The notes under the pieces were generated by a model, which saw nothing but the letters and a program-made list of their open reading frames with translations, had not been told where the DNA came from and made no database searches. Made by a program: the position numbers and the translations under genes. Shown here piece by piece: positions 1 to 18,000 of a DNA stretch of 24,139 nt; the first letter of the stretch is position 1; each line of letters opens with the position of its first letter. The DNA is from a virus, in the IMG/VR virus record IMGVR_UViG_3300048135_000354, positions 1 to 24,139 of that record, one strand, 5' to 3'.

Positions 1-2984
1 CTGGCTTCAAGTATCTCATCATCACCTGCCGTTGCTGCATTAATTGGTTCAGGGAACTCAACTCCACTTATCGCTTTCTTGTATGCGGTAATACCTCCCT
101 CAATAATTGATCCGACGCCGCCGACTATTGATTTAAACCCACTCTTTATTATGTCAAACGCACCTCCAATAATATTCCCAAGTCCTTCAAACGAGAACAA
201 ATCAGCGAAGGAGAAGTTAGCAAATGCTGCCGTGAGTTTATCCCAGTTGGCTATTATTCCTGCTATCGCTGAGACAATTAAGATCAATCCTCCCGTCGCA
301 AAGACAAACGCTGTGAACATTGTTATTCCAGCGGCCACCGACGCTGCGGCGGCGGAGCTTACTCCTAATACATAGATGGCAAAGGACTTGACCGCAGTTC
401 CCACAAAAGTACCGACTATTATTCCGCTTGTGTATAGTGCAGAAGCCGCAATCTTAAAGAATGCAGCGGTGCTGTTTATTGCTGTAGTAAGAATTCCTTT
501 TGTTAAAAGTTTGAATGCAGGAAGAAGATTTCTTAATATGAATGGGACAATTTGACCAAGTCCAGTAAGTGCGGAACGGCCTATTGTCATAAAAATAGCA
601 CCAATAGGAATGTTGGCTGCTACAAGTGCTTGGACCGCCGCTGTTAGTGCTCCGGCAACACCAATTGCTGCTACAAGCCGCATCGTTACCTTGCTAATAT
701 TCTCGCTAAAGTTCTCCATCGTGTTTGATGCAGTTTCGATAGCCGGAGAGAATATGTTGTACGCCGTCGCTGCGGCACCTTCAATTGCAGCAGCGAATGC
801 TTCTATCTGAGAAAGAACTGCATTTATTCCAACTTCAAGGACCTTGATAAATTCAGCCAAGTTCGCAAATGATGTTGCAATAGGAAGAGCCAGTGCAGCA
901 ATTGCAGCACCTAGACGAATGAACAATCCAGCAACTCTTCCTAATATTGCTATCGCTGATCCCAGTGGTTGCAAGAAGTCATTGACCGCTCTTGAAAGTG
1001 TACTGAATGCGTTACTTGCTCCTCCGAGTATCGATGCAGTTGCTTCGTTGATCCCCTTCTGTAGAGAAGCAAACATGCTGCCACCAGACTGAGCAAATCT
1101 TTGTGCGGCAAGGTCTACTCGGTCGAAGCTATTTTCCAGTTGCCCCAACGCATCGATTTCAAACGAGGATGCAGTGAGATTGAGCCTGTTAACTTCTTTA
1201 TTGAGTTCCTCAATGCTTTGAAGTGCTGGCAACAGGTTGCCAAATCTATTTCCAAATATATCTACTGCAATACCAGTCCTGTCAGCAGCGTCTTCTACTT
1301 CAAGCAACCTCTTTGCGGTGAGTGCAAAAGTCTCTTCGGGGCTTAATTTTCGAAGGTCCTGTACGCTAATGCCGAGTCGGTCAAACCCAGCAGCGGCATC
1401 TCTTGTTTCTGGTAAATCTAATGCACCAAACTTGATCTTACTTACGTTCTGTGCAAACTCTTGCTGGCTTCTGTTCAGAGCATTCATGCTCAAGCCAGCA
1501 GACTTGGCTGCTGCTGATAAAAGCTGGACTTGGTCTGTTGCCATGCCGAACTGGAAGGACAACTGCTGGACAACCTCGATTTCACGAGACATTTTTCGAA
1601 GTTCTTGGCCAAGACCGGAAACCAGAGCAGAAGCAACTGCAAAAGCTGCAATATTTGGCAAGTTGGCAAGAAACGTCTTGAATGCCACGTTGGCACCAGC
1701 GATTGAACCTGCCAAAACACTTGTACCAGCAGTAAAGGCACTGATTGCACCTTTAGCAAGGCCTAGTCCAGCAGCCATAGCAGCAGACTTAACAATGATC
1801 TTGCCAATCTTGGTTGGTGTCGTGTCTTTATCCGCTGCTGCCGTGATTAAAGAGAATGCAAAGCCAACATCCTTCAAATCCGAAGCAAGTCCTGCTGCAT
1901 TACCGGCCATTCCCCCTATGAGACTTCTCGCACTTGCTGCTGCTTGTGTGAATGTCATTGTTGCTTGGCCTGCTACCGCAACTTTTGCTGCCAAACTTGC
2001 GAATGACAATGCAGCGACCTGATTTCCTGCCGAGTATGCAGCTTGAACAGAAACAAGACGTGTAACTAAAAGGAGATATCCACGACTTTCTTCTGACATG
2101 TCTTGAGTTGCAATGTCAACAGCCGAAACGAGTGCAGTGTATACAGCCAAGTTAGTAGTTAGGCCGACAAAAGACTTTCCAAGTGCCAACGCTACCGTGT
2201 TCATCGCATTTGCGTTGCCGCCAAGTGCTGCAAGTGCTGTTTGTGTTCCTCCCAACTGTGTCGCAATGTCCGTCAAGGCACCACGAAGTGCGAAAAGCCC
2301 TCTACCGGCAACAGCTTCAAAACTCAGGCGAAGAATGCTGGCACTTTCAGTCGCTTGGCCTACCGCTACTACCAGTTCATCGAAGTTCCCGGCGTTAATT
2401 GCATCGATAGCCTTCTGGCTTGCCGTCCTAGCACCCTCAAACGATTGTTCAAATCCGTCTTTGACTTGCCCAGCAGCATCTCTCGCTTGTTTTGCACTGC
2501 CAACAAGAGAAGAGAATCCGCTTTCCGCTGCGATCGTTCCGTCTGCTGCAAACGCCATTGCTTCAGCGAAAGCACGTCCGAATCTTTCGGTTGCAGCTTC
2601 AACTCGGGAAGCAGAATTCTCTATGTCATCAACAAAGTCTTCGACTGAAGCAGATGCTTCGCTAATCTGACTGGTATCAACTGAAACTTCAACAGAGTCA
2701 CCTGTTGCTACATCAATTGTCTGACCACCAGCATCCTTAATATCATCCGCTAACGATGTGACATCATCTCGAAGGCCATCTACTCCTGTGGTTGTCTCCT
2801 CAAGCGACTCAACAAACGAATCAAAAGCAGTCGATCCATTTGCCTGCATCTTCCCGAGTTCAGTGTTGAGAGAAGATACACTATCGGTCAGTGAATTAAT
2901 CAATGAAACCGACTCTTCAAGAGCCGACCTTAACTGATTTAAATCAGCAGTGAACGAAACGTTTAATGAGCCTAAAGTTGCCAT
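1..2984 (-). CDS. Tape measure protein, partial (3' end outside window)
   Basis: This frame is open from an ATG at 2984 to the window edge, giving at least 994 residues. It is read by translating the complement, beginning MATLGSLNVSFTADLNQLR. The N-terminal third is rich in Ser, Glu and Asp with heptad-like spacing (likely coiled coil). The remainder is Ala/Gly/Leu-rich with several hydrophobic segments, one near residue 895 reading about ATGGLILIVSAIAGIIAN. Length, composition and position directly after the G/GT chaperones are those of a siphovirus tape measure protein, which sets tail length, occupies the tail lumen and may take part in membrane passage at DNA entry. No peptidase or lysozyme motif is seen in the visible part. 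The start lies 6 bases past the GT stop, with GGTGG about 10 bases upstream. Family assignment is firm; the C-terminus is unknown. Confidence 0.9.
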   Translation of the reverse strand, partial: MATLGSLNVSFTADLNQLRSALEESVSLINSLTDSVSSLNTELGKMQANGSTAFDSFVESLEETTTGVDGLRDDVTSLADDIKDAGGQTIDVATGDSVEVSVDTSQISEASASVEDFVDDIENSASRVEAATERFGRAFAEAMAFAADGTIAAESGFSSLVGSAKQARDAAGQVKDGFEQSFEGARTASQKAIDAINAGNFDELVVAVGQATESASILRLSFEAVAGRGLFALRGALTDIATQLGGTQTALAALGGNANAMNTVALALGKSFVGLTTNLAVYTALVSAVDIATQDMSEESRGYLLLVTRLVSVQAAYSAGNQVAALSFASLAAKVAVAGQATMTFTQAAASARSLIGGMAGNAAGLASDLKDVGFAFSLITAAADKDTTPTKIGKIIVKSAAMAAGLGLAKGAISAFTAGTSVLAGSIAGANVAFKTFLANLPNIAAFAVASALVSGLGQELRKMSREIEVVQQLSFQFGMATDQVQLLSAAAKSAGLSMNALNRSQQEFAQNVSKIKFGALDLPETRDAAAGFDRLGISVQDLRKLSPEETFALTAKRLLEVEDAADRTGIAVDIFGNRFGNLLPALQSIEELNKEVNRLNLTASSFEIDALGQLENSFDRVDLAAQRFAQSGGSMFASLQKGINEATASILGGASNAFSTLSRAVNDFLQPLGSAIAILGRVAGLFIRLGAAIAALALPIATSFANLAEFIKVLEVGINAVLSQIEAFAAAIEGAAATAYNIFSPAIETASNTMENFSENISKVTMRLVAAIGVAGALTAAVQALVAANIPIGAIFMTIGRSALTGLGQIVPFILRNLLPAFKLLTKGILTTAINSTAAFFKIAASALYTSGIIVGTFVGTAVKSFAIYVLGVSSAAAASVAAGITMFTAFVFATGGLILIVSAIAGIIANWDKLTAAFANFSFADLFSFEGLGNIIGGAFDIIKSGFKSIVGGVGSIIEGGITAYKKAISGVEFPEPINAATAGDDEILEA

Positions 2985-2990
2985 TGCTGC

Positions 2991-3290
2991 TTATCCACCA
3001 AATCCCGGTATCTTGGCCAACTCCGCCAACATCGCATCTGCCGACTGGGGTTTCTTCTTGTGCGACGGCATGAGCAACTCCTCTTCGAGGTTTTTGCAAC
3101 CCCAAGCCGTACATAATGCTGTAGCTAACCTGCTAATCTGCCTCCACTCGTCACCGAATGGTTCAATTAGCCAGAAAGCCTCCCACTCCGCTAGTTCTGC
3201 TGCGTCAATTGTTTCGAGCAACTCTTTGTGCGACCTACCTAAGGCGAGTGCGAGACGAAACTCGAACCGCCGTCTAGGACGCTCTAGGAG
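2991..3290 (-). CDS. Tail assembly chaperone T half, expressed as a GT frameshift fusion
   Basis: This frame has no ATG at its head. Its usable reading begins at the end of the G gene, in the -1 frame relative to G, and runs 99 residues to a TAA at 2991. Immediately after the slip the protein reads about LLERPRRRFEFRLALALGRS, then a segment with AELAEWEAFW. This closely resembles the C-terminal part of phage tail assembly chaperones. A TTG at 3221 could give a 76-residue product, but the family-like sequence starts well upstream of it. Together with G it would make a 212-residue GT protein. In lambda, G and GT recruit tube subunits to the tape measure protein. The position between G and tape measure matches that role. 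Confidence 0.85.
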   Translation of the reverse strand, partial: LLERPRRRFEFRLALALGRSHKELLETIDAAELAEWEAFWLIEPFGDEWRQISRLATALCTAWGCKNLEEELLMPSHKKKPQSADAMLAELAKIPGFGG

Positions 3291-3628
3291 TTTCCCGCCA
3301 AATCATCCACATCATCTTTAGTAAATCGATTGTGTTTCATGCACTTGTGAAAGAGCAGTTCGAGAACAGCCGCTGACTTGTCTCCAAGTTCTGGGATTTC
3401 TTCTTCGCTGAAGATTCTCTTACCGTCTTCATCGCACAAACACTTTGAAACGAGCTTTGCTCGAACCATCTCTACAGACTTGTTGTCGCCTACGAATTCA
3501 GACTCGAACTTGTCTCTCTCGGTGCCACTCATGACGCGAAGGCATACCTCTCCACCCCATTCTGGTACTTCCACCTCAATCAACTTGCTGTCATCTGCTG
3601 ACAAAATCTGCGCTTTTGTAAGAGCCAT
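3284..3628 (-). CDS. Tail assembly chaperone G
   Basis: This is a 114-residue protein starting at an ATG (MALTKAQILSADDSKLIEV) and ending at TAG. It is acidic, with a C-terminal DDVDDLAGNS. Its location directly after the tail-tube genes and before the tape measure gene, plus the slip site in its last codons, identifies it as the short product of the G/GT chaperone pair. In lambda the G protein is made in large excess over GT and both are absent from the finished tail. The start lies 20 bases after the last tube-like gene. Sequence similarity alone is weak for such proteins, so the call rests on context and the slip site. Confidence 0.85.
   Translation of the reverse strand: MALTKAQILSADDSKLIEVEVPEWGGEVCLRVMSGTERDKFESEFVGDNKSVEMVRAKLVSKCLCDEDGKRIFSEEEIPELGDKSAAVLELLFHKCMKHNRFTKDDVDDLAGNS
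3290..3296 (-). promoter_or_regulatory. Programmed -1 ribosomal frameshift site GGGAAAC
   Basis: On the minus strand the end of G reads GCG GGA AAC TCC TAG, so the heptamer G GGA AAC is in the correct register for a -1 slip (X XXY YYZ), two codons before the G stop. After slipping, the ribosome enters the T frame at CTC. Lambda uses GGGAAAG at the same place. A possible downstream structure (GGCG and CGAG pairing with CTCG and CGCC) starts about 18 bases after the heptamer. It is not needed for the call. Confidence 0.9.
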
Positions 3629-3648
3629 TTCCTACCTACCTCATAAAA

Positions 3649-4059
3649 CTATGCCGGGAACTTAAAGGACAACGTTGCCCTAATCTGTTCGCCAGCGGAC
3701 TGCGATTGCGATATGGAATTAAGCATTGCACTGCCTGTCATCCAGTTTGTGCCTTCGTCTGCATTAGTTATTGACAGAGCGGCAGTAGTTCCTAAATGCG
3801 TGTAAGAAAAATTTAATTTTCCGAGAACATCTAAAGACAACTCGCCGTATTCTTTAACAACAACTTCGGAGTGTTTTTCTATCCTTTTTATAGGCTCGTT
3901 TGCTGCACCTATCCTTGTGGTAAACATCCCTTTGTTCTGGTTCGAGTACTGCCTGTCTAAGCTTGTCACGTCCATCTCAGAAACAGCACCGCCTTGCCAC
4001 GACATGCTCGTGATAGACTCGACTTCTGTGCTACCCCAAAACACCACGTTCCTTGACAT
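3649..4059 (-). CDS. Tail-tube-type protein, paralogue 6 of 6
   Basis: This 136-residue protein is the last and most diverged of six tandem relatives. It keeps the family layout: an N-terminal strand pattern ending in SEMDVTSL, a central ELSLDVLGKL that matches the KVDFxG position, and a C-terminal GEQIRATLSFKF that matches GDLxxGSATFKL. The middle carries an insertion rich in charged residues (about residues 40-70) not seen in the first two copies. The ribosome binding site is weak (AGGC, 9-10 bases away). It could be a minor tube subunit, a tail-tip adaptor with a tube fold, or a tube decoration. It sits directly upstream of the G chaperone. Confidence 0.75.
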   Translation of the reverse strand: MSRNVVFWGSTEVESITSMSWQGGAVSEMDVTSLDRQYSNQNKGMFTTRIGAANEPIKRIEKHSEVVVKEYGELSLDVLGKLNFSYTHLGTTAALSITNADEGTNWMTGSAMLNSISQSQSAGEQIRATLSFKFPA

Positions 4060-4074
4060 TTCGTACGCCTGTTT

Positions 4075-4476
4075 TTAATAGAACGAAAACGTTGCTGACG
4101 CTCTTGGTAAATCGCTCACCGACTGATCTTGAGAGCTTGACAGCAGAGTTGTGTACTTCGCTTGACCTTGCGTTCTCGGCAAATTCCAATTCGCTGCGGT
4201 TGCGGTCCCGTTCATCTCTGGACTCTCGATCCACATTAATTTGTTCTTCCCAACCTCGCTCATGCCCATAGCACCACCGATGTACTCAATCCGAAGTTCT
4301 CCTTGGCTAATTACAACCGCCTCAGTTTCTGCGTATATGAACTTCTGACTTCCATCTTCGTAAATGCTTGAATTCCTGTGCGTTATGTCAACCTCTGACT
4401 CAACCTGAGCAGACCATTCCATGCTAGTGCAAAAGAAAAAAGTTGAACCCCAGTGCAGTTTGTTTTGAAATGCCAT
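4075..4476 (-). CDS. Tail-tube-type protein, paralogue 5 of 6
   Basis: This 133-residue protein belongs to the tandem series. The family features are degenerate but ordered the same way: SAQVESEVDITHRNSS near residue 25 (for EIDxTSL), ELRIEYIGGAMG near residue 62 (for KVDFIG), and DLPRASATFSFY at the C-terminus. The N-terminus (MAFQNKLHWGSTFFF) resembles that of paralogue 6 (NVVFWGST), so copies 5 and 6 look like a subgroup. AGGA lies 5 bases before the ATG. Exact role is unknown; a minor tube or tube-end component is the likeliest reading. Confidence 0.75.
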   Translation of the reverse strand: MAFQNKLHWGSTFFFCTSMEWSAQVESEVDITHRNSSIYEDGSQKFIYAETEAVVISQGELRIEYIGGAMGMSEVGKNKLMWIESPEMNGTATAANWNLPRTQGQAKYTTLLSSSQDQSVSDLPRASATFSFY

Positions 4477-4483
4477 CGCAATC

Positions 4484-4870
4484 CTAAACTAGCTTAAATG
4501 TCGCTGTGCCTTTCATGAGATCACCCGCACTGGCTGAAATTGAAACCCCCTGTGCGATTGCACTCTGAGACGTAAACGCACCCAAAGGTTGGGTCTTGAC
4601 GCTCATCATGGCCGTATGAATGCTGCTTGTTATAAGTTCAAGAGTGTGGACACCATATGTTGGAGGTTTTTGATAACCAAGCCAGTCAATCTTGATTTCC
4701 GTTTCCGCAAGATTTGAAAATCTTATGCGGCTCAGGCTTCCGCTACCTGTAGGTATGCTTAACGAAGTTGCGTCAATCTCAGGCTTCTTATAAGTGACCG
4801 AAATGTTGGTTGCGGTGTAATCTTTGCCAGCGAATTTTACGCCTATCCCTTGTACGCTTTTTATGCTCAT
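4484..4870 (-). CDS. Tail-tube-type protein, paralogue 4 of 6
   Basis: This 128-residue protein starts MSIKSVQGIGVKFAGKDYTA. It shows the family signature clearly: ATNISVTYKKPEIDATSL, then ETEIKIDWLGYQ, then AGDLMKGTATFKLV at the C-terminus. It begins two bases after the previous gene stops and has no recognisable Shine-Dalgarno sequence, so translation probably depends on coupling to the upstream paralogue. Known tail tube proteins of this size form stacked hexameric rings around the tape measure. Whether this copy joins that ring is not shown by the sequence. Confidence 0.8.
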   Translation of the reverse strand: MSIKSVQGIGVKFAGKDYTATNISVTYKKPEIDATSLSIPTGSGSLSRIRFSNLAETEIKIDWLGYQKPPTYGVHTLELITSSIHTAMMSVKTQPLGAFTSQSAIAQGVSISASAGDLMKGTATFKLV

Positions 4871-4872
4871 AG

Positions 4873-5217
4873 TTAGTCGTAGCTCGGCTTAAATGTCGCC
4901 GATCCTTTCACTTGATCGCCGACTGTGCCCGTTATAGTTACGCTGGTGCATGCCGCCTTAGTGCCGAAAGCTGATCCAGTGGCACCCCAGCCACTGTCTA
5001 TACTGAAATCATCTACACCAATAGCTGGGGCCGTGTCGCCGAGGTAGTCAACTTTGATTTCATAGTTAGTCATTTTTAATGACCTGAATTTTCTAAGACT
5101 TCCCTTGCCAAGCCCTAAGTGAGAGGAATCAACCTCTCTCCCGGAAGTAGTGACAGATATACTTGTTGCCTCGTAGGTTACGGCGTTTGAACCAGAGCCA
5201 AAGGTGAAGAATGCCAT
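4873..5217 (-). CDS. Tail-tube-type protein, paralogue 3 of 6
   Basis: At 114 residues this is the shortest of the series. The signature is clear: ATSISVTTSGREVDSSHLGL, then NYEIKVDYLGDTAP, then VGDQVKGSATFKPSYD. The segment TSGREVDSSHLG is what I would expect of a typical siphovirus tail tube protein. Only AAGG, 9-10 bases away, is available as a ribosome binding site. It follows paralogue 2 by 21 bases. Confidence 0.8.
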   Translation of the reverse strand: MAFFTFGSGSNAVTYEATSISVTTSGREVDSSHLGLGKGSLRKFRSLKMTNYEIKVDYLGDTAPAIGVDDFSIDSGWGATGSAFGTKAACTSVTITGTVGDQVKGSATFKPSYD

Positions 5218-5238
5218 TCTGTTTGCCTTTTTTTATTA

Positions 5239-5658
5239 TCACGGTTTGTCTGGGACAGTGAGTTTGAAAGTCGCTGAGCCCGTGTACAGGTCACCAACAT
5301 TAAACGTTTGAGACAGGCTCGAACAAAGGGCAGGGCAAGTAAGTGTGTTTGTCGTATTGGTAGCAGCCGTTTGTTTATCAGTGACGACAACTGCATGACT
5401 ATTGCTTGTATTAACCTTCGTCATCTGGAACCCATGAATCCTCAAAGTCCCTGTCTCTTGGACACTCGGGTAATGGCCCCCAATAAAATCTACTTTGAGA
5501 GTCACTTCAGCCAAGTCGCTGTGACCAACCTGACGTCTAGTCGAGCCTAGACTTGTCTCGTCTAGTTCGCCAAAACTCTCTGAGTAGTTTATTGAAGTTG
5601 CTGTATATGTAGTTCCGCTAAAACTAAACGTAATACCGGAGGCTGATTCAAATGCCAT
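5239..5658 (-). CDS. Tail-tube-type protein, paralogue 2 of 6
   Basis: This 139-residue protein starts MAFESASGITFSFSGTTYTA. It carries ATSINYSESFGELDETSLGS, TLKVDFIGGHYPS and VGDLYTGSATFKLTVPDKP in the family order. Three cysteines sit near residues 108-112 (TCPALCSS), at the same place as the single Cys of paralogues 1 and 3 (ALCTS and AACTS). A perfect AGGAGG at 5666-5671 lies 7 bases before the ATG, so it should be strongly translated and is one of two candidates for the major tube subunit. Confidence 0.85.
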   Translation of the reverse strand: MAFESASGITFSFSGTTYTATSINYSESFGELDETSLGSTRRQVGHSDLAEVTLKVDFIGGHYPSVQETGTLRIHGFQMTKVNTSNSHAVVVTDKQTAATNTTNTLTCPALCSSLSQTFNVGDLYTGSATFKLTVPDKP

Positions 5659-5680
5659 AGCATTCCCTCCTGAGGGTGAG

Positions 5681-6052
5681 TTACGAGTTTGTCAAACGGA
5701 AAGTAGCACTGCCTGTGATTAGCTCACCAACCTGAGCGGTTAAGTCGACACTGGTACAGAGTGCTGCTGTAGGAAGTCCTGCTGTAAAGGCAGCATTCGA
5801 ACCCGAACCATCAATATTCCAAGAAATAGTTCCTGTCGCTGTTTGACTTGGAATAGTCAGGCCAACAAAGTCAACCTTCAGTTCGTCACCATCACGAATA
5901 GGAGAAGGACGATACTGACGGAACTCACCTTGTGCTGTTTCAAGACTTGTAACGTCAATTTCACTAACCCGTTTGGATGCTGAAATTGAGTTAGCAGTGA
6001 ACGTAGCACCATTAAAAATAAACGATATACCTTGACTGGATTCGTATGCCAT
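5681..6052 (-). CDS. Tail-tube-type protein, paralogue 1 of 6 (candidate major tube protein)
   Basis: This 123-residue protein starts MAYESSQGISFIFNGATFTA. The family landmarks are SEIDVTSLET (about residue 30), ELKVDFVGLTIPS (about residue 57) and VGELITGSATFRLTNS at the C-terminus. It is the first tube-type gene after the tail terminator, and a perfect AGGAGG at 6059-6064 sits 6 bases before the ATG. Strong translation and first position make it the best candidate for the main tail tube subunit, which polymerises around the tape measure. The tube family assignment is from motif layout and gene order. I cannot say from sequence alone which copy is structural. Confidence 0.85.
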   Translation of the reverse strand: MAYESSQGISFIFNGATFTANSISASKRVSEIDVTSLETAQGEFRQYRPSPIRDGDELKVDFVGLTIPSQTATGTISWNIDGSGSNAAFTAGLPTAALCTSVDLTAQVGELITGSATFRLTNS

Positions 6053-6081
6053 TTCGTCCCTCCTTGGACGTTGTGAACGAT

Positions 6082-6498
6082 TTAATTAATCGATTCTTCA
6101 AATCGAACTTCGTATGTGTGATCAACCCTATACAGTGGTTTTGACTGACCCTCTCTGGGACGCTCCATGCTGTCTGATTCTGAGACTAACGCACTTAATA
6201 CAATTTTCGCACCCTCGGCCTCTCCCGTAAAGTTATCCAATCCAAGACGAATCGCTTCTGACATGTCTTTAACCTGAGAGTACGACTCTGACACCACCGA
6301 CACCAAGAAAACAGCTATCGGTCTGCCATAATTTCCTGTTAAACCACGCTGCCTTGTCGTAGAGGACCTTCGGTAAACAACTAAAGGAAAACTAGCATCC
6401 TGCCTCGCCAAGACCGGAAAAATGCCTGCCACTGACCCAACAGCAGTAACAAGCTTTGACCTTATCCACTTTTCTGGAGTTGGCACATTTTCAGTCAT
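6082..6498 (-). CDS. Tail terminator / tail completion protein
   Basis: This 138-residue protein (MTENVPTPEKWIRSKLVTAV) has the layout of the DUF3168-like and lambda gpU-like tail terminators: an N-terminal helix, FPLVVYRRSSTT as the first strand pair, GRPIAVFLVSVVSESYSQVKDMSEAIRLGL in the centre, and YRVDHTYEVRFEE at the end. Such proteins cap the tail tube after it reaches tape measure length and dock the tail to the head. It shares an ATGA junction with the upstream gp10-like gene and precedes the tube genes, the usual siphovirus order. Family call from pattern and position. Confidence 0.75.
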   Translation of the reverse strand: MTENVPTPEKWIRSKLVTAVGSVAGIFPVLARQDASFPLVVYRRSSTTRQRGLTGNYGRPIAVFLVSVVSESYSQVKDMSEAIRLGLDNFTGEAEGAKIVLSALVSESDSMERPREGQSKPLYRVDHTYEVRFEESIN

Positions 6499-6872
6499 CT
6501 TTGAACCTCGCTGTTAAACCACTGAGGAAGAAGAACAGAGGGCACCTCAGAAAAGTTTTTGATCGAACTTTCAATAACAGTCTCAAGCTCTTCAGAAGGA
6601 ACCCAAGTAAGAACAGTACGCTTCGAGTCCGGTATGCGTTCCACTTCCGGAAGTCCACCCGTCTCTACTTCACGCTCGAATCCGACAACAAAGTCTCCTT
6701 TGTCCGGAATTGATACGACAGATTCCTTTAACTTCCCAGAATAACCCTTTGGAGTCTCTTCTTTTAACTCTTCAGTAAACGATTCTCCCAGAATTGTCTC
6801 GACCACTTCCTCCGTCAGAACTCGCATCAAGCTTTCAACAGACTTGCCTGCGTAAGACACTTTAGCCTTCAT
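6495..6872 (-). CDS. HK97 gp10-like minor head-tail protein
   Basis: This 125-residue protein (MKAKVSYAGKSVESLMRVLT) has TPKGYSGKLKESVVSI near residue 41, matching the TGxLxxS motif typical of HK97 gp10 family tail components, and a VGFEREVETGGLPEVE stretch beyond it. It lies between the head closure and tail terminator genes, the usual place for this family. Its role is likely at the head-tail interface. It overlaps the upstream stop by one base (TAATG) and the downstream start by four, so the three genes are translationally coupled. Confidence 0.75.
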   Translation of the reverse strand: MKAKVSYAGKSVESLMRVLTEEVVETILGESFTEELKEETPKGYSGKLKESVVSIPDKGDFVVGFEREVETGGLPEVERIPDSKRTVLTWVPSEELETVIESSIKNFSEVPSVLLPQWFNSEVQR

Positions 6873-7204
6873 TAAACTTGCTCCGCGCAGGTAAGACGAT
6901 GCTCTTCTCTATTGTTAAGCTCTGTCGCAGAAATTATGTCGAGGTACCTCTCTGGGTTTCTGCTTGACCAGACAAGCCGCATTTCAGTCGACAACCCGGG
7001 GACATATCGCATAGAAACATCGTGAGTTACGACAGTGCCGACTTGCTGCGAGTCAACCGACTCTCTGGAAACGATTCCACTTATTGCCGCTCTTCTGTTG
7101 GCAAACGTTTCCCATGCAATATTTGTTTCCCCGTAGCTATTCTGAGTTTTGACTGGACGCTGAATAGTTACGGATTCTCTGAGCTTTCCTGCCTGTAGTG
7201 TCAC
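6872..7204 (-). CDS. Head-tail adaptor (head closure) protein
   Basis: This 110-residue protein starts MTLQAGKLRESVTIQRPVKT, followed by NSYGETNIAWETFANRRAAI and later a DVSMRYVPGL strand. The opening AGxLRxxVTIQ and the SYGExxxxW block are hallmarks of the phage head-tail joining (SPP1 gp16-like) family, which stacks under the connector ring and closes the head after packaging. It overlaps the connector gene by four bases (ATGA). Length is normal for the family. Confidence 0.9.
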   Translation of the reverse strand: MTLQAGKLRESVTIQRPVKTQNSYGETNIAWETFANRRAAISGIVSRESVDSQQVGTVVTHDVSMRYVPGLSTEMRLVWSSRNPERYLDIISATELNNREEHRLTCAEQV

Positions 7205-7830: not shown

Positions 7831-8041
7831 GTTTCTTACCTCTTCTTCTGTGCTGAGCTACAGCCTTCTCGACCTTTGGGGCTGCTGTAGTATCTTCAAC
7901 TACAACCTCACTGCGTTTCTCGACCGGTTCAGCTATTCCTGTGTTTAACCAATTTCTGGCAGTAGGTTCGTATACAGAAGCAACTACTCCCTTACGATAA
8001 AAGCTCCAGTCCTTTAGCATTCTTACTTTCATTGACTTCAT
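7817..8041 (-). CDS. Small conserved phage protein of unknown function
   Basis: This 74-residue protein reads KVRMLKDWSFYRKGVVASVY, then TARNWLNTGIAEP, then a basic, low-complexity tail (QHRRRGKKRED). Small proteins with a K(V)xxLKDxxFYxxG start and a LxxxGIAEP block are common in phage head regions. I know of no assigned function. The start forms a TAATG junction with the glycosyltransferase gene stop, so the two are coupled. A second in-frame ATG lies three codons later. Confidence 0.7.
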   Translation of the reverse strand: MKSMKVRMLKDWSFYRKGVVASVYEPTARNWLNTGIAEPVEKRSEVVVEDTTAAPKVEKAVAQHRRRGKKREDV

Positions 8042-8802
8042 TAATCACCTACCGACTTTCTTGCGTGTTCTTCACTGCCCCATGCCTCTGGCGGACGTCT
8101 TCCTCCATCATTCCAATAGTGCGTAGGATACTGATGGATTCCTTTAAGCTTTTGGTCTGGCCAAGTCACAACTAGCTCTGCATGGCCAATCGAAACCTGA
8201 GGGCATACGCCCATTGAGAAGCCCTCTTCTCGCCATTTTTTCCAGAAATAGATATCCGGATCAACGCGACCGTCTTTCCAATCGCCATCGGGCCCGGGGA
8301 CTCCTAAGAACCACGGCTTAGTCATTTTCCTCAACGCTGAACATCTCAGTAGAGTGAGCCCAAAGTGCAGAGTCTCGCAAGGCTGACAAGGCTTTTCCCA
8401 CCAGCTATTTGGAAGCGTGATTTGATTTCCTTCGTGACCTGAAAATCCTTCAGGAGTGAACATCAGGTGCTTATCATCACGCTTTGTTTGCAGCGGTGCC
8501 AGTGCGTCCACGCCTGATACGAGCATGGTTGACATGAGCTTTGTCAAGCAGTTTGGCTCAAAGACTGAGTCGTAATCAAGGGTCAGAACATAATCAAAGT
8601 TCTGCTCGTCATTGATTACTTCAGTCAAGACGTTTGAAATTGTCTGGTCCCAAAAAGCACCTGTGCCTTTTATTAGATGGATTCCGTGCGGAACCAAGGC
8701 TGCATGTGCTGTAAAGAAGTTATCCATAAAACCAAGTCGCGGCACACTCATGCATGCCGCGACCCGGATGTTATGTTCAACGTTACCTACGATTAATCGC
8801 AT
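8041..8802 (-). CDS. GT-A-like glycosyltransferase domain protein
   Basis: This 253-residue protein has the shape of a GT-A fold enzyme. There is an early strand, then YVLTLDYDSVFEPNCLTKLM near residue 71 with D76-Y-D78 as a DxD-type metal/nucleotide-sugar site. There is a central PGPDGDWKDGRVDPDIYFW region and a C-terminal VSIGHAELVVTWPDQKLKG segment with a possible metal-binding His. Substrate cannot be told. GGAG lies 6 bases before the ATG. Its location between capsid and connector genes is unusual and suggests modification of a virion protein or host surface sugar, but this is inference. A catalytically inactive GT-like structural protein is the alternative. Confidence 0.7.
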   Translation of the reverse strand: MRLIVGNVEHNIRVAACMSVPRLGFMDNFFTAHAALVPHGIHLIKGTGAFWDQTISNVLTEVINDEQNFDYVLTLDYDSVFEPNCLTKLMSTMLVSGVDALAPLQTKRDDKHLMFTPEGFSGHEGNQITLPNSWWEKPCQPCETLHFGLTLLRCSALRKMTKPWFLGVPGPDGDWKDGRVDPDIYFWKKWREEGFSMGVCPQVSIGHAELVVTWPDQKLKGIHQYPTHYWNDGGRRPPEAWGSEEHARKSVGD

Positions 8803-11231: not shown

Positions 11232-12374
11232 TCATTTTTTTGCAGTTTTACGCTTAACTTTTTCAACCGTCTTGTCTGCTGCGTTTACTGCTGTAGGAAT
11301 TCCAAAAGTAGCCACTATGAAGTTTGCTCCGGTCTTAGCTACAGTTTTAAATCCTGCTTTTGTCAGCCTTGCCGCAACTCGCTTCGTGTAGTCCGCACGT
11401 CCTTTTTTAATAGCTACTTTTACCTTCTTATTTGTCACCTTGCTTGCGAAATTAGCAAGCTCGCCGACACGTTTATCGTTTAGGCATCCCAAGTCACAGC
11501 GGGGGTAGACAGTAACTGCCTTGGATGCAATGTCTACGTTGAACAATAACTTCTTTTTTGTGTCTTTTATCTTCAAAGTCAAGTTCTTTTTGCCGTCCAA
11601 ATCCAAAACAGAATCCTTTGATCCGCCAAGACTTTTTACTAAAGACTCGACCTTTTTATCGGATGTGCCAAGAGATTTTACTCGTGACATAATCTGCTTT
11701 GGCTTTCTCTTGTGATCTATGTACCCTTTGATCGCGCCGCCAACTGCTCCAACTGCCGCTCCTGCTGCAAGTCCCGGTTTGTACTCGCTTAAACCTGCTC
11801 CAGCCGCTATCGCTGCGCCGGTTGCTGCACCCTTTGCTGCACCCTTTGCTGCCGCTGTTGCGCCAGAAGAAGAACAAGTGTTACCTTTTTGGAAACCTCC
11901 CGTCCCTGTCCCGCAGTCTTTGGCACGTCCCTCTGACTTTCTGGGATGTCCTTTAGGAAGAAGGTCGTTGTCGCCTGTGTACTTGGCAGAGTCTGGTTTC
12001 CCTGTCCGTACAATTTTTAGCCAAGCATTTACTCGGCCCATTGACCATTGCTGCCGACTCATTCCGGGCCTGTGGGTTGCGGAAAATGCTCCTGCGCCTC
12101 TACGCCACACGGCCTTCAGCATCCCGAGAGTGACCTTCTTCCCAGCCTTGTCACCATATTTCTCGTTGTGCTTGTCGGCCTTTTCTTTTAAACCAGCAAT
12201 AATAGCATCGGTCAGCTTGATTCCACCACGAGTATTCTTTGAAGAACCTTTTTTGTTCTTCTTAGAATTTTTAATTCGTTCCTTTGGAAGAGCAGGGGTC
12301 TTCGCGTCGGAAGCCTTTCTACTTTCATAGAAGGCTAAGGCACTTGCGTATCTGCAATCAGTTGAAGAACTCAT
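11232..12374 (-). CDS. Accessory protein: phage DUF domain, Cys tag, glycine-zipper region
   Basis: This 380-residue protein starts in an ATGA overlap with the protease gene. Residues 50-145 (GIKLTDAIIAGLKEKADKHN, later GMLKAVWRRGAGAFSATHRP and NDLLPKGHPR) match a phage domain of unknown function that I recall as DUF5824, not verified. Residues 148-167 carry E-G-R then CGTGTGGFQKGNTC, a variant of the tag in the portal fusion. Residues 171-218 are Ala/Gly-rich with GxxxG spacing (AAKGAAKGAATGAAIAAGAG, then GLAAGAAVGAVGGAIKG), a glycine-zipper pattern that can insert in membranes. The C-terminal 160 residues are very basic, with KKLLFNVDIASKAVTVYPRC in the middle. Position in the head block implies a virion or procapsid protein. 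Function is unknown. Confidence 0.75.
   Translation of the reverse strand: MSSSTDCRYASALAFYESRKASDAKTPALPKERIKNSKKNKKGSSKNTRGGIKLTDAIIAGLKEKADKHNEKYGDKAGKKVTLGMLKAVWRRGAGAFSATHRPGMSRQQWSMGRVNAWLKIVRTGKPDSAKYTGDNDLLPKGHPRKSEGRAKDCGTGTGGFQKGNTCSSSGATAAAKGAAKGAATGAAIAAGAGLSEYKPGLAAGAAVGAVGGAIKGYIDHKRKPKQIMSRVKSLGTSDKKVESLVKSLGGSKDSVLDLDGKKNLTLKIKDTKKKLLFNVDIASKAVTVYPRCDLGCLNDKRVGELANFASKVTNKKVKVAIKKGRADYTKRVAARLTKAGFKTVAKTGANFIVATFGIPTAVNAADKTVEKVKRKTAKK
11824..11852. repeat. Short tandem repeat encoding AAKG units
   Basis: The 12-base unit GCTGCACCCTTT occurs twice in a row and again in part. In the coding frame it gives the repeated AAKG units of the glycine-zipper region of the accessory protein. 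This looks like slippage expansion of a structural repeat. Confidence 0.6.
11874..11915 (-). repeat. Two-cysteine boundary tag, copy 6 (accessory protein)
   Basis: Residues 154-167 read CGTGTGGFQKGNTC, preceded by E-G-R at 148-150. It is one residue shorter between the cysteines than the five portal-fusion copies and has Thr for Asp before the second Cys. It separates the DUF domain from the glycine-zipper part. Confidence 0.75.
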
Positions 12375-13924
12375 CTTCTTCTCCTAAGAAAATCTATCGT
12401 GTCAATTACGACGTCTTCTTCACCATTCGTCGACCTTTTGTCTAGGAAAGACTGGAGGGATCGCATCTCTCCAGAGAAATCATGACTGCGTCTCTTTGCA
12501 CTTGGCTTGGACTGCGTTTTTCGGTTGGACTTCAAATAGTCTTCATAACTTCTTTTTGCTACAGCGACCGTACTGTCTCCGTACGCCGGATACGTGACAG
12601 GGCCACAGTCGAGAAGTGACTTAATCTTGGTTACAGTTCGAATCGACTGACCGTCTTCAGTACTCCACTTTTCTCCACCATCCGCGACTACGAAGCTAAA
12701 GCTTGATCCTCTTAAGTCGCCTCTGTTTACAAGTTCAGCAATGTCTGATCGTGAATCGGGAAGCGAAATCTCGTACCGAAGACCCTTGCTATCAACAGTC
12801 AGCTTCATCGTCTCCGGGAATCTTCCAATAAGATGGTTTGGGTCGTGATTAAAAAGGCCACGAGTCTCTAAAGGCTTTCCCTCTAAGTCTTTACCCGAGT
12901 CGACAATCTGAAATGCCTCTGGGTCTATACGCTCAATAAAATCACCCAAGAGTAGCGAGTCCGAACCAAACTTTGCTGCATACCCAACAAGAACAGTCTT
13001 TCGTATGCCAGAGGCTTCATCCGTACGACGCTCTACAGCAAGGTCGTTTGGCTCGGCCTTGTCTGTACTTTTAAAATTCCCTATGTACCTTCTCTCAACT
13101 GATCTCATCGAAAGACTCCTGTCTTCTTTTTTATCACTAAAATATTTATTAAGGACTTCTTTGTGCGATTCGGGCCTTCTGGGGTCTTGCTCTATCCGAT
13201 CGAGACACTCGCACTTAGGTGTTTCCATCTCCACGTATTCGACAGGCACATCCTTCAGTGACTCACTAAGTTCATCTCTCACGAAGGTCGTAATGATCCA
13301 AGTTCTGTCTACCTTCGATGAACGAAGGGCTTTATTTATAATAAGGGTTCTTATATCCATACAATAAGAAATGAGGTTTTCGTTGCTGTTAAACTGATCG
13401 AGGCCAGACAAAGACTTCATGATTTTATCGAAGTCAAATATTACATCGTTATCGCCGCTGTGTTTTTTTACATAAGTCGACTTTCCTGAAGCTGGAGGTC
13501 CGTAAACCACAGTAATCTTTGGTTCCATTCCGTGAGACGAGCCAAACGGACGCAAGGACCTGCCGTCCTTCTCTTTCTTGTCCGCTGCTTCCATTTGCTT
13601 TACGACCTTCTTGGCCCACGAATATCCACTTGGTCCTCCCCATAAAAGATCAGCAATTTTTCCCGCAGAGGGGAACCCTTTCTCTCCTTGGCGAAACCCC
13701 TCGGCCTTAGAGTCGCTAGCATGACGATCAAAGAATGCCTTCATCCGTTTGACAGTAGTTGGACTTACATTGGTTCTGTTTGATAAGTCCCTTGCTCGTG
13801 CCACACCTATTGCCGTGCCACCTCTCTTAAACTCTCTGCGTAGCTTCAGTCCGTACTCTGCCTCACGGGCCACACCGTTCGGAGGCTTAAAGTCTATGTG
13901 CTTGTACTTTTCAGGAGTCGCCAT
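12371..13924 (-). CDS. Fusion: phage DUF domain + P-loop kinase + HK97-type prohead protease
   Basis: This 517-residue protein starts at an ATG with AGGA 7 bases upstream and overlaps the portal fusion by 14 bases. Residues 1-110 (GGTAIGVARARDLSNRTNVS, then SPTTVKRMKAFFDRHA and GKIADLLWGG) are a phage-associated domain of unknown function. Residues 134-265 form a P-loop kinase: Walker A GPPASGKST at 142-150, D164/D166 after strand 2, and a C-terminal ESHKEVLNKYF. It resembles polynucleotide-kinase or zeta-toxin-like ATPases. Residues 297-455 are the S78 prohead protease: GYAAKFG at 314, LFNHDP with His360, LRGSSFSF with Ser407/408, and LLDCGPVTYPAY, where Asp439 takes the place of the usual acidic residue. 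It should cut the capsid arm. [E/D]-x-R-S occurs at 120-123, 267-270 and 486-489, at the domain joints and in the tail. Confidence 0.9.
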   Translation of the reverse strand: MATPEKYKHIDFKPPNGVAREAEYGLKLRREFKRGGTAIGVARARDLSNRTNVSPTTVKRMKAFFDRHASDSKAEGFRQGEKGFPSAGKIADLLWGGPSGYSWAKKVVKQMEAADKKEKDGRSLRPFGSSHGMEPKITVVYGPPASGKSTYVKKHSGDNDVIFDFDKIMKSLSGLDQFNSNENLISYCMDIRTLIINKALRSSKVDRTWIITTFVRDELSESLKDVPVEYVEMETPKCECLDRIEQDPRRPESHKEVLNKYFSDKKEDRSLSMRSVERRYIGNFKSTDKAEPNDLAVERRTDEASGIRKTVLVGYAAKFGSDSLLLGDFIERIDPEAFQIVDSGKDLEGKPLETRGLFNHDPNHLIGRFPETMKLTVDSKGLRYEISLPDSRSDIAELVNRGDLRGSSFSFVVADGGEKWSTEDGQSIRTVTKIKSLLDCGPVTYPAYGDSTVAVAKRSYEDYLKSNRKTQSKPSAKRRSHDFSGEMRSLQSFLDKRSTNGEEDVVIDTIDFLRRRR

Positions 13925-15080
13925 TTTCTTTCCTCTCCTCCTCAGCCCTAGCGGCTTCTTCTAGTCGTTCAACGTCTGCCTCACCCGGAAGGCCCGACTC
14001 TCGGTACTTCTTCCACACAGACTCAAGTGCCGACTTGTCTTCCTCAGTAGCATCCCAGTCTGAAGCATTTTCACCCGAAGCCATTTCCTGCTCGTTTCTT
14101 TTTTTCTTTTTCTTGCTTTCGAGATAGTCGTCCCTAACCAATCGGCTTTGAGATCGAGGGTTTGTATCAAAATAAAGTGAAATATCACTACCATGTTTGC
14201 CCCACCATGCTTCGCCACCTTCTTTGGAAAGAATGTCTAGAAGTGTCCTTGGAGTAGAGCCTCCCATAATTTTGCTAAGATCATCATCAGCTTCTTGGAT
14301 CAGGCTAGCTGCAAAGTCTAAGTCCTTACCCTCTGTCATTGCCTTGTATTCGTACGACTTGTCGATTGAATCTCTTACTCGGTTGATCGATGCATTGTAA
14401 CCAAACTTCGGCCAAACTTTGTAGCCAACAAGTCTGAACTTAGGGTCTTCGGAATCTTCTCGTGCTGCAAACATAGCTATCGAATCAACTGGAGAAGAAG
14501 TGGACCTAACTACTGACTCTGTTGCAAAGCCCTTTTTCTGAAAGTCAGGGTGAACAAGTAAATTTTCAAGAGAAAGATGATTAAGACCTTTTTTTGTTTT
14601 TGAGATAGCCCTGTTTGCCATTGCGGCTACAACAGGGTCTCCATCCTTTTCCTCTCTCATGTCTTGGTTTTCCTTAGAATAACCTTCACCAGTCGATGCT
14701 CCTGTAATGCTCCACTCAGCGGCAAGGCCGTTCCTAAGTGGAAAAATCTTTAGCTCAGGCTTTCCAGAATTATCGTTGTCTCGTGAAGAAAACAGCGGAA
14801 CTCCTGAAGCCATCACTGCTTCGGGAAGAGACATTTTCAAGCTGTCTCCAAGCTGCTGCTTTAAATCACTTGCGTCACTAAGAGTGATCTTTCCTAGGTT
14901 CTCCGCTCCAGCGAACAAGGGCTTTGCAGGGTACCAGACTTCAGTCTCTCTCCTGCTTCCCCAGTCTTGTTCGTCCTTACCGAATGGGGATTTTTTTGAT
15001 GGTTCTTCGGGTGACCCCTCTGATCCATCAGACGCGCAGTCGTTTCCTTTTCCAAACTTGCCTCCGTCCTGTCTTCCGCA
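13911..15080 (-). other. Portal fusion module 5 (residues 1998-2386), GNAT-like acetyltransferase
   Basis: NHLSLENLLVHPDFQKKGFA near 2165-2184 is a GNAT motif A: a strand, then HPxxQxxGxA for the pyrophosphate of acetyl-CoA. GYKVWPKFGYN near 2215 is the terminal GNAT strand region. GEAWWGKHG near 2286 and a Lys-rich tail follow. It is paralogous to module 3. Substrate unknown. Confidence 0.6.
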
Positions 15081-18000
15081 ATCGGATGACCGAGACTCTT
15101 CTTTTTTAGAAGCATACTTGAGAAGAATGTTTACAAAGTCCTCATCACTGACTTTACTTACGGCCTCGTCAAACAGAATCTGTTCCCTGCCACCACGGTC
15201 GTAATCATCGTAAGGTGCGACCTTATTTTTCTCTGGGTCTCTAGATCGTTTATTGACTCGTGCTGCCATTGGCCTTCTGCTCTTACTGTTTTCGGAGATA
15301 CCTCGTATTACATCAGAATACAGAGACAAGTCGCCTAGTCCCGTTACAGTCTTCGCACCAAGGGCTGCGTACGCATCTTGCTCGTCTTGCCAGAGTATGT
15401 CTTGCATGTAAGCAGCAGGCTGGCCCACCCTCTTAGCAGCATCTCGGGCGATCTTAATCATGTTCGATCGCCTAGTGCCTGCCCCCGGGTCTCCCATGAG
15501 GCTCCAGTCATTCTCTACTATTCCCTTGGCCGCTCTGTTTAGTTTTCCAACTGTTCCTGTTTTGTCCTTAAAGCCACCGTTCGCGTAGCTTCTAAGTCTG
15601 GCTTTAGACCATTCTTTTATAACGTCGTCAGGCTCTCCGGTCTTCTTCATCTTCTTGATAGATTCCTTTAAGACATTCTTATCAATTCCATGAAGAGCTT
15701 CTGGCTTGGCCCTACTAATTACTGCCGATATCTCAGAAGCCCGCTTTGCTCCGGCAGTCGAACTTGGAGGAACAACTAACTCTCCACTTGTTCGACCCCA
15801 TGTTCTCGTCCACCAGACATCTGCTGTCAGGTGATCTGTCTCGCCATTATTATTTGCATAGAACGGACCAACCTTTGGCCCGAAGACGCTAAATAATGGA
15901 ACCTTCTCTGAGACAACATAGTTCTTAGGACGAAAATCCTTTCCTGCTTCCTTGCCCATTAAGTCATTAAACAAAGACTCTGCTTCGTTAGAATCTAAGA
16001 CTGTGCCATTAAATAACTCTCGTGTTTTCTTTATACCTTCGCCAATGTCTACGCTACCGTCTGTTCTCTTACCGAGCCGCTCAACAACAGACATATACCT
16101 AGACAGTGACTTCTGTATCCCCGGTCCAGTTACTCCTAGCTTTGTGGAGGTCCTTAAATCGGTGTCATCGTTGAAGAACTTGTTTAAGAGACTGTCTGTT
16201 CTCTGCATATTGGAGAACGGACTGGCGTTAGGAGAAGTCAGAGCCTGAACTGATCGGAATAAATGCTCGGCATCCTCCGCTTCAATTGTCTGCCCATCTT
16301 TAGTCTTTCCACCTTTCACCTGAGGTATGATCTTGGAAAACTCCTCGATCTGTGCCGACCGCTCCTCGGGACTATAGAACTTTGCAGAGATTCCTCGGTT
16401 CATAGCACTCTCTGCTTGCGAAGCAATAGACTCTACAAGGTAGTCGTACTCGTTCTCACCAAGCTCTTTCACGGCAGTGTTTATAGTTGCTCCGCGATCT
16501 TCGCCCTGTTTTGCAGTCAGCAACTCGCCTGCTTTTGTCGTCGAGACCCACTCCCTGCCAGCAAATGAATAAACATCCTTGTCGTCTACAAACGTAGAGT
16601 CAATCTTTTTTCCATCACTAGAAAGCTTTGTCGGAGGGTTGTCGATTGCATCTTGGACAACGTTCCTTACCTTGTCGCCTTTACTCCACTTAAGCCCGGA
16701 GGACTTCGAAGTTTTCTCAGTAGTTTTTTCTTTTTTCTTAGAAGGCTTTTCTTTTGTGGCCGTAGACCCGCTGCCGTCCTCAGCAGCACAGTCATTTCCC
16801 GATCCGAACTTGCCTCCCTCCTGCCTGCCGCAATCTTCCCTGAACTCAATTACGGTGTCTAAGAAATCAAATAGTTCAAACGCCTCTACAGAGGAGTCTC
16901 TTTTTTCATTTCGCTTTCGCAGTGCATCCAACAACTTAAGTTTCTGTTGGAACTTCTTGTATCCAGTAGAGTCCTTCTTGCTAAAGTCCAAAGTCATCTT
17001 TGTGGACTGACCATTCATGGCCCACCACTGCTTACCCTCAGGGGTAGAAACAAGCTGTTGAATTGTGACGTCACCTCTGTCCTTGACGCTCTTAGGAATT
17101 ATTTCGTCAGGTATGCTGTCCTGTAATTTTCTAGACGGAAGTGGCCCATCGAAGCCAAACTGCGGCCATATCTTGTATCCCTGAAACGCATTGTCTCCGG
17201 GAGAGCCTGCTGCATCTAAAGCAATCCTGTCGGCACCCATTTCCTCAGCAGCCTTGGCTGAACTTAACGCATGCTCCGACATGACTGAAGCAACCTTGTA
17301 CCTAGTCTTGTCATCTAGGCTAGCAATGTTTTTCCCAACAGAAAATATGTTCCACTCAACTTCAAGGTCGCCATCTTCGTATTTATTGATATTAATCCTT
17401 GTTGAGGCAGTCCTATCATCTGGGTCTGTATCATCATCTGTTTCTGGAGTGAGGGGTATAGAAGACGCTACACCAATAGATGACTTTAAGTCTCCGTACT
17501 CATCATCCTCAAAGTCGAGATGAACCGAAGAGTCACGTACGTTTCCGGCTCCCGCTGCCAAGATGCTGGCAACATTAGATAGACCCATGCTTTCCAGTGT
17601 GCTTTTAACTGGCCCAACGCTTGAAACGTAACTCAGCTTGTCGGCACCCGAGTAATTCTTTAAATCCTCTTTCTTAACCTTTGTAGAGAAAGCTTTAGAT
17701 AACGTGCTAAGTAAGTCTTGCTTTCCGTCGCCTTGGGGAGACGTGCCGTCAGCCGCACAGTCGTTGCCTGAGCCAAACGTGCCGGAAGGAGTTCGCCCAC
17801 AGTCGTCGCGAGACTCTTCTAGTAAAGCCCCGGTCGATCCTTCTTCGAGTCCTTGTACCAAGCTGGGTCCAGTTCCTCCCCGTTCTTCTTGGCCACTTGC
17901 TCCGCGAACTTCCGGAACGCTCTGAACGCTTCCAGCTTGCCCCCGCCCGCTGGGATGTCGAACCGCTCCGCTTGCTTCTTCTCGTCGCTCATTGTTTTTT

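Follow-up and report, generated by a model that had tools for sequence, protein, structure and literature searches.

Six tandem tail-tube-type genes in a siphovirus-like tail operon, built on a two-gene core and an optional three-gene block

INTRODUCTION

The tube of a siphophage tail is usually described as a single repeated protein, with one tube gene per genome. The tubes of lambda (gpV), GTA, R4C, and monocin share a beta-sandwich with a helix, usually come from one tube gene, and have that gene in a slot between terminator and chaperone. Departures from a single simple subunit have been described: SPP1 makes two forms, gp17.1 and gp17.1*, from one gene via a frameshift, and T5 pb6 has two tube domains fused in one protein (PMC9022992). 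Several actinobacteriophage clusters, including that of Damascus (cluster EL), have two annotated major tail proteins (PMC11080557); in Arthrobacter phage Ottawa the two major tail protein genes, gp39 and gp40, are adjacent and homologous. The nearest functional parallel to the arrangement proposed below is the Afp contractile particle, in which Afp1, Afp5, and Afp7 form the central tube (PMC12961389).

The window analyzed here, a linear IMG/VR virus record of 24,139 bases, carries six such genes in a row. The locus shares the fold and gene slot of the lambda, GTA, R4C, and monocin tubes, but it and its relatives have two, five, or six separate paralogs, and the window proteins have no detectable sequence similarity to those tube proteins. 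As in those actinobacteriophages, a single major tail protein gene ahead of the chaperone is exceeded, but they have two genes only, from a different protein family. Like SPP1 and T5, it departs from a single simple subunit, but with separate genes; an SPP1-type frameshift variant is ruled out because the ORFs are separate and have their own starts, and a T5-type tandem domain because the proteins are single-domain and 114–139 aa long. Like Afp, it would place several tube components in one conduit, but Afp is a contractile particle, not a siphophage, and here up to six paralogs stand in one gene run. An earlier note on this DNA held that siphoviruses normally encode one tube protein, which is right in general but does not allow for the paired actinobacteriophage genes. 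We found no description of arrays of more than two separate tube genes in the literature or phage records searched.

RESULTS

Six homologous genes occupy the tube slot

The minus strand of the window is a head and tail operon comprising terminase subunits, portal, protease, and major capsid protein, followed by head-tail adaptor, head closure, tail terminator (6082–6498; phrog_347, 5e-8), six tube-type genes (3649–6052), tail assembly chaperone (3284–3628; phrog_344, 3e-28), and a tape measure gene (3–2984; phrog_9483, 2.9e-13) cut by the contig end. The terminator and chaperone anchor the array upstream and downstream, respectively. The array consists of six consecutive, mutually homologous ORFs, as the earlier note had stated. 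All have ATG starts, and gaps of 2–22 bp separate them. In order of transcription, these are copy 1 (5681–6052, 123 aa), copy 2 (5239–5658, 139 aa), copy 3 (4873–5217, 114 aa), copy 4 (4484–4870, 128 aa), copy 5 (4075–4476, 133 aa), and copy 6 (3649–4059, 136 aa), all on the minus strand. An identical six-gene array is present in a second contig, L002 (IMG/VR 3300048446), which departs from the window only near its own end, indicating that the array is not specific to one assembly and ruling out an assembly error as the source of the six copies.

Copies 1–4 are mutually related, with about 28–40% identity and pairwise local-score z values of 11–29 (none of 500 shuffles scored as high), and copy 5 is related to copy 6 with z 10.4. 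Pairwise similarity between the two sets is weak (z 0.5–5.7). Profile comparison by hhalign of 61 first-to-fourth-type and 40 last-type sequences, drawn from the window and its relatives, aligns the two sets over 119 columns with 99.6% probability (E 1.7e-24), and a profile seeded with copies 1–4 also recovers the last-gene family. These comparisons give good support to copies 1–4 and copies 5–6 being two branches of one protein family. The motif layout ascribed beforehand to all six is clear in copies 1–4 and degenerate in copies 5–6. The description of copies 5 and 6 as a diverged pair holds by pairwise score; in a tree, copy 6 joins the last genes of the nearest five-gene relatives, L003 and L017 (94/76), and copy 5 is unplaced.

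Models of copies 1 and 6 have a tail-tube fold

AlphaFold2 models of copy 1 (pLDDT 81, pTM 0.65) and copy 6 (pLDDT 77, pTM 0.62) have beta strands with a long inter-strand loop and a short helix, an arrangement much like that described for tail tube proteins (PMC9022992). The best Foldseek matches of copy 1 in the PDB are GTA and phage 812 neck-tail chains, monocin, R4C, and lambda; those of copy 6 are lambda gpV and lambda-like tail cores. The matches are mostly to tail-tube and related conduit proteins, with E values down to 2e-4; the models are of moderate confidence, and the RMSD to the matched structures is about 4–8 Å. Structure prediction, proposed earlier as a check, thus matches copies 1 and 6 to solved tail-tube proteins. 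The beta-sandwich is assigned to these two copies by models and to copies 2–5 by homology.

The gene position is likewise that of a siphophage tube gene, with the terminator on one side and the chaperone and tape measure on the other. By sequence, the six copies fall in no curated tube family: none scored above the cut-off in a Pfam search (copy 6 to Phage_TTP_11, E 0.013), none matched a named tail family in PHROGs, and none matched the sequences of solved structures. A profile link to REQ1-type major tail proteins was not significant (probability 21% and 11%). Fold and position together bear out the designation "tail-tube type", and the assignment of the six tail-operon genes of this long-tailed (siphovirus-like) phage to a tail-tube-fold family is well supported by homology and modeling. 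The tube fold also occurs in neck, baseplate, and distal-tail proteins. With such reuse, the fold identifies a protein as tube-type and does not give its position or role.

Relatives carry two, five, or six tube genes

We collected 52 distinct near-relative arrays, the window array among them, from related IMG/VR contigs by anchoring on the terminator and chaperone that flank the tube genes. The terminator, chaperone, and tape measure frame the tube genes in the same layout in all 52. Two tube genes are present in 41 arrays, five in 10, and six in one (the window array, also in L002); no three- or four-gene array occurs among the 52. Every array has a first-type gene, T1, in first position and a homologous last-type gene, TL, in last position, so that a second tube-type gene beside the first is universal. 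Six is therefore the extreme of a series built on a two-gene core, as a survey of relatives, suggested in the earlier note, makes clear. Copies 1–4 of the window correspond to T1–T4, with the extra gene beyond the five-gene set being a second TL-type gene: copy 6 (TLb) is probably the regular TL, and copy 5 (TLa), homologous to copy 6 and to the last genes of relatives, would be the additional paralog.

T1 is 64–82% identical to the window copy in the first relatives found and is 123 aa long in most arrays (longer in L070, L075, L085, and L086, with an extended start in L067, and shorter in the distant L093 and L094). The fastest-evolving tube gene is TL, which is also of variable length and has a mean identity among five-gene arrays of 47% versus 75% for T1; T2–T4 also evolve faster than T1. 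Window copies 2, 3, and 4 are 46%, 49%, and 48% identical to T2, T3, and T4 of L003, respectively, and copies 2 and 3 form clades with the corresponding genes of L003 and L017.

A tree of 99 tube proteins separates T1, T2, T3, T4, and TL by their place in the array, with 6 label changes against a minimum of 4 and a mean of 51 after shuffling. T2–T4 jointly form one clade and lie nearer to T1 than TL does; T4 is orthologous and forms one clade (SH-aLRT 87), and T3 forms one clade in a further tree. On a tree of flanking genes and T1, a single clade of five-gene viruses is rejected (p-AU 5.7e-53), and the five-gene state requires at least 3 changes, most simply 6. Since the five-gene viruses are not one clade and T2–T4 are orthologous, T2–T4 have been gained or lost as a block. 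The T2–T4 tree agrees with T1 groupings, suggesting that the block was either inherited vertically and lost repeatedly or transferred together with flanking genes.

In a distant lineage (capsid protein 43–50% identical), arrays have three genes, the middle one being of separate origin, indicating that the slot between the first and last genes has been filled more than once. Further distant contigs have one or two recognized tube genes. A pattern scan of 84,980 bacterial and archaeal genomes found no relatives of either copy 1 or the capsid protein; no capsid protein relatives were found among 50,697 phage records, and no T1 or T4 relatives in cultured phage records. Two contigs, L139 (7600–8523) and L164, have an in-frame T2::T3 chimera near the contig end that is 97.8% and then 100% identical to L052, consistent with either recombination between tube paralogs or assembly collapse.

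Translation signals favor the first gene

In the window, copy 1 is preceded by AAGGAGG (−11.9 kcal/mol) and copy 2 by AGGAGG (−10.8 kcal/mol), whereas the Shine-Dalgarno sites of copies 3–6 are weak (−2.2 to −4.0 kcal/mol), in agreement with the pattern described in the earlier note. Across arrays, the T1 site is near-perfect in nearly all (median −11.9 kcal/mol), and the median values in five-gene arrays are −6.4 for T2, −4.5 for T3, −4.4 for T4, and −5.1 kcal/mol for TL (the TL medians are −5.1/−0.9 kcal/mol, the former for five-gene arrays). T3/T4 and T4/TL frequently overlap by a base, suggesting translational coupling. The expectation that expression falls after the first gene is strengthened by the recurrence of a strong first and weak later sites in independent arrays. 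Site strength is suggestive of high T1 abundance, and T1 is, on this basis together with its fold and conservation, the predicted major tail tube protein. The copy 2 site in the window nearly matches that of copy 1, unlike in relatives, so copy 2 may also be abundant here.

T1, TL, and the gene following the tape measure co-vary in divergence

Among 11 contigs, once the divergence of capsid, chaperone, and terminator is regressed out, pairwise divergence co-varies between T1 and TL (partial r 0.64), between T1 and the gene directly following the tape measure, here termed tip (285–325 aa; 0.71), and between TL and tip (0.45), with p ≤ 0.0005 in each case, in an exploratory analysis with imperfect controls. 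The tape measure has no such co-variation. Co-variation beyond background is as expected of touching parts, and fits contact of TL and of the tip gene product with the T1 tube. One representative tip protein was searched against databases and had no match. In one five-gene relative, L238, the tape measure is followed by a giant tail-tip protein of 2227 aa (215–6898, minus strand) that has an RCC1-like repeat stretch close to the N-terminus and, in the C-terminal half, many virion-structural matches.

Two candidate correlates of the T2–T4 cassette were rejected. Tape measure lengths are similar in two-gene (1343–1879 aa) and five-gene viruses (1737–1911 aa), and a comparison of 12 contigs found no downstream gene, tail-tip genes included, that is confined to the five-gene viruses. 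In 17 contigs of up to 97 kb, there are no tube-type genes elsewhere.

DISCUSSION

A two-gene core with an optional three-gene block probably reflects a tail made of one mass-produced tube protein and rarer specialized ones. We favor, with a probability of roughly 0.55, a reading in which T1 is the bulk tube and TL and T2–T4 form lower-abundance specialized rings or segments. Specifically, the greater part of the tube enclosing the tape measure would consist of T1 rings; TL (a single gene in relatives, copies 5 and 6 in the window) would be an obligatory minor partner with the tube fold, most likely a ring adjoining T1 near one tube end; and T2, T3, and T4 would be an optional, co-dependent trio, made in smaller amounts and forming extra specialized rings or a short segment. 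The homology of the copies, the fold of copies 1 and 6, the gene position, the Shine-Dalgarno signals, the T1–TL core, and the T2–T4 block pattern bear on this reading directly; hexameric rings, stoichiometry, and positions in the virion are what we infer from them. Of the roles that the earlier note had raised, specialized rings fit best with the fixed gene order, orthologous copies, purifying selection, and block-wise gain or loss. A bolder version, which we put forward tentatively and think rather unlikely in full, is that the rings of the non-contractile tail follow a programmed series drawn from five or six different tube proteins, in which T2–T4 form an ordered segment adding a function (for example, that of a valve, of a hinge, or of a joint with the tip) that evolution switches on or off as a three-gene unit.

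An obligatory tube paralog pair with an optional co-inherited trio suggests ring-by-ring specialization of the DNA conduit. Viruses with and without the trio, having the same flanking genes and similar tape measure lengths, are matched natural comparisons, and annotation that assigns each genome a single "major tail protein" leaves members out.

The paralogs might instead co-polymerize within rings or take turns along the full length of the tail, making the tube heteromeric, in line with the tube of several subunits that the earlier note had also raised. The tube core common to all copies, the strong Shine-Dalgarno site before window copy 2, and the closeness of T2–T4 to T1 relative to TL would all suit such mixing, but the T1 site is far stronger than those of the other copies in nearly all arrays, and two- and five-gene viruses have similar tape measure lengths and the same T1, indicating that the tube can do without T2–T4. 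We consider a mixed tube unlikely. Somewhat less likely again is that TL and T2–T4, with a fold derived from the tube, are accessory proteins that decorate the tail exterior or serve adsorption, outside the conduit. Baseplate and neck proteins do reuse the fold, and these genes do evolve faster than T1, but in most contigs the proteins are minimal single domains of 105–150 aa, with no added surface domain, and the genes occupy the tube slot, with TL co-varying with T1.

Variety for its own sake, whether to vary exposed surfaces or to escape host sensing of monomeric tube protein, has a precedent in DSR2, which is activated by a phage tail tube monomer (PMC10981675), and copy number does differ among relatives. 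The antigenic variety proposed earlier is nevertheless disfavored, and we regard this explanation as very improbable: copy number is near-bimodal (two or five, with the single six and no three or four), gene identity and order are fixed, and extra tube types would present more targets, not fewer. Furthermore, dN/dS is 0.02–0.40 for all tube genes in pairs of relatives with estimable dS, several of the dS values being saturated, by which measure all copies are under purifying selection across deep divergence. That T2–T4 are relics of neutral duplication heading for loss, as their absence from most relatives might suggest, is least probable of all, given such selection, intact frames, maintained orthologous groups, and no broken copies in complete arrays.

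Additional features of the operon

The portal protein (13911–21071, minus strand, 2386 aa) has an ordinary portal domain at about residues 44–534 and then a long extension, in which a DCGRxxGGxFGxGNDCA-like motif, present four times (residues 482, 1086, 1409, and 1993), separates unrecognized segments. The prohead protease (Peptidase_S78; 12371–13924, minus strand) also has an AAA_33/polynucleotide-kinase-like domain, upstream of the protease. A conserved 253-aa protein is encoded between the capsid and connector genes (8041–8802, minus strand) and is 64–75% identical in relatives. The end of the chaperone ORF (3284–3310, minus strand) contains GGGAAAC, a canonical −1 slippery heptamer, with the −1 frame open downstream, which is probably the usual G/GT programmed frameshift.
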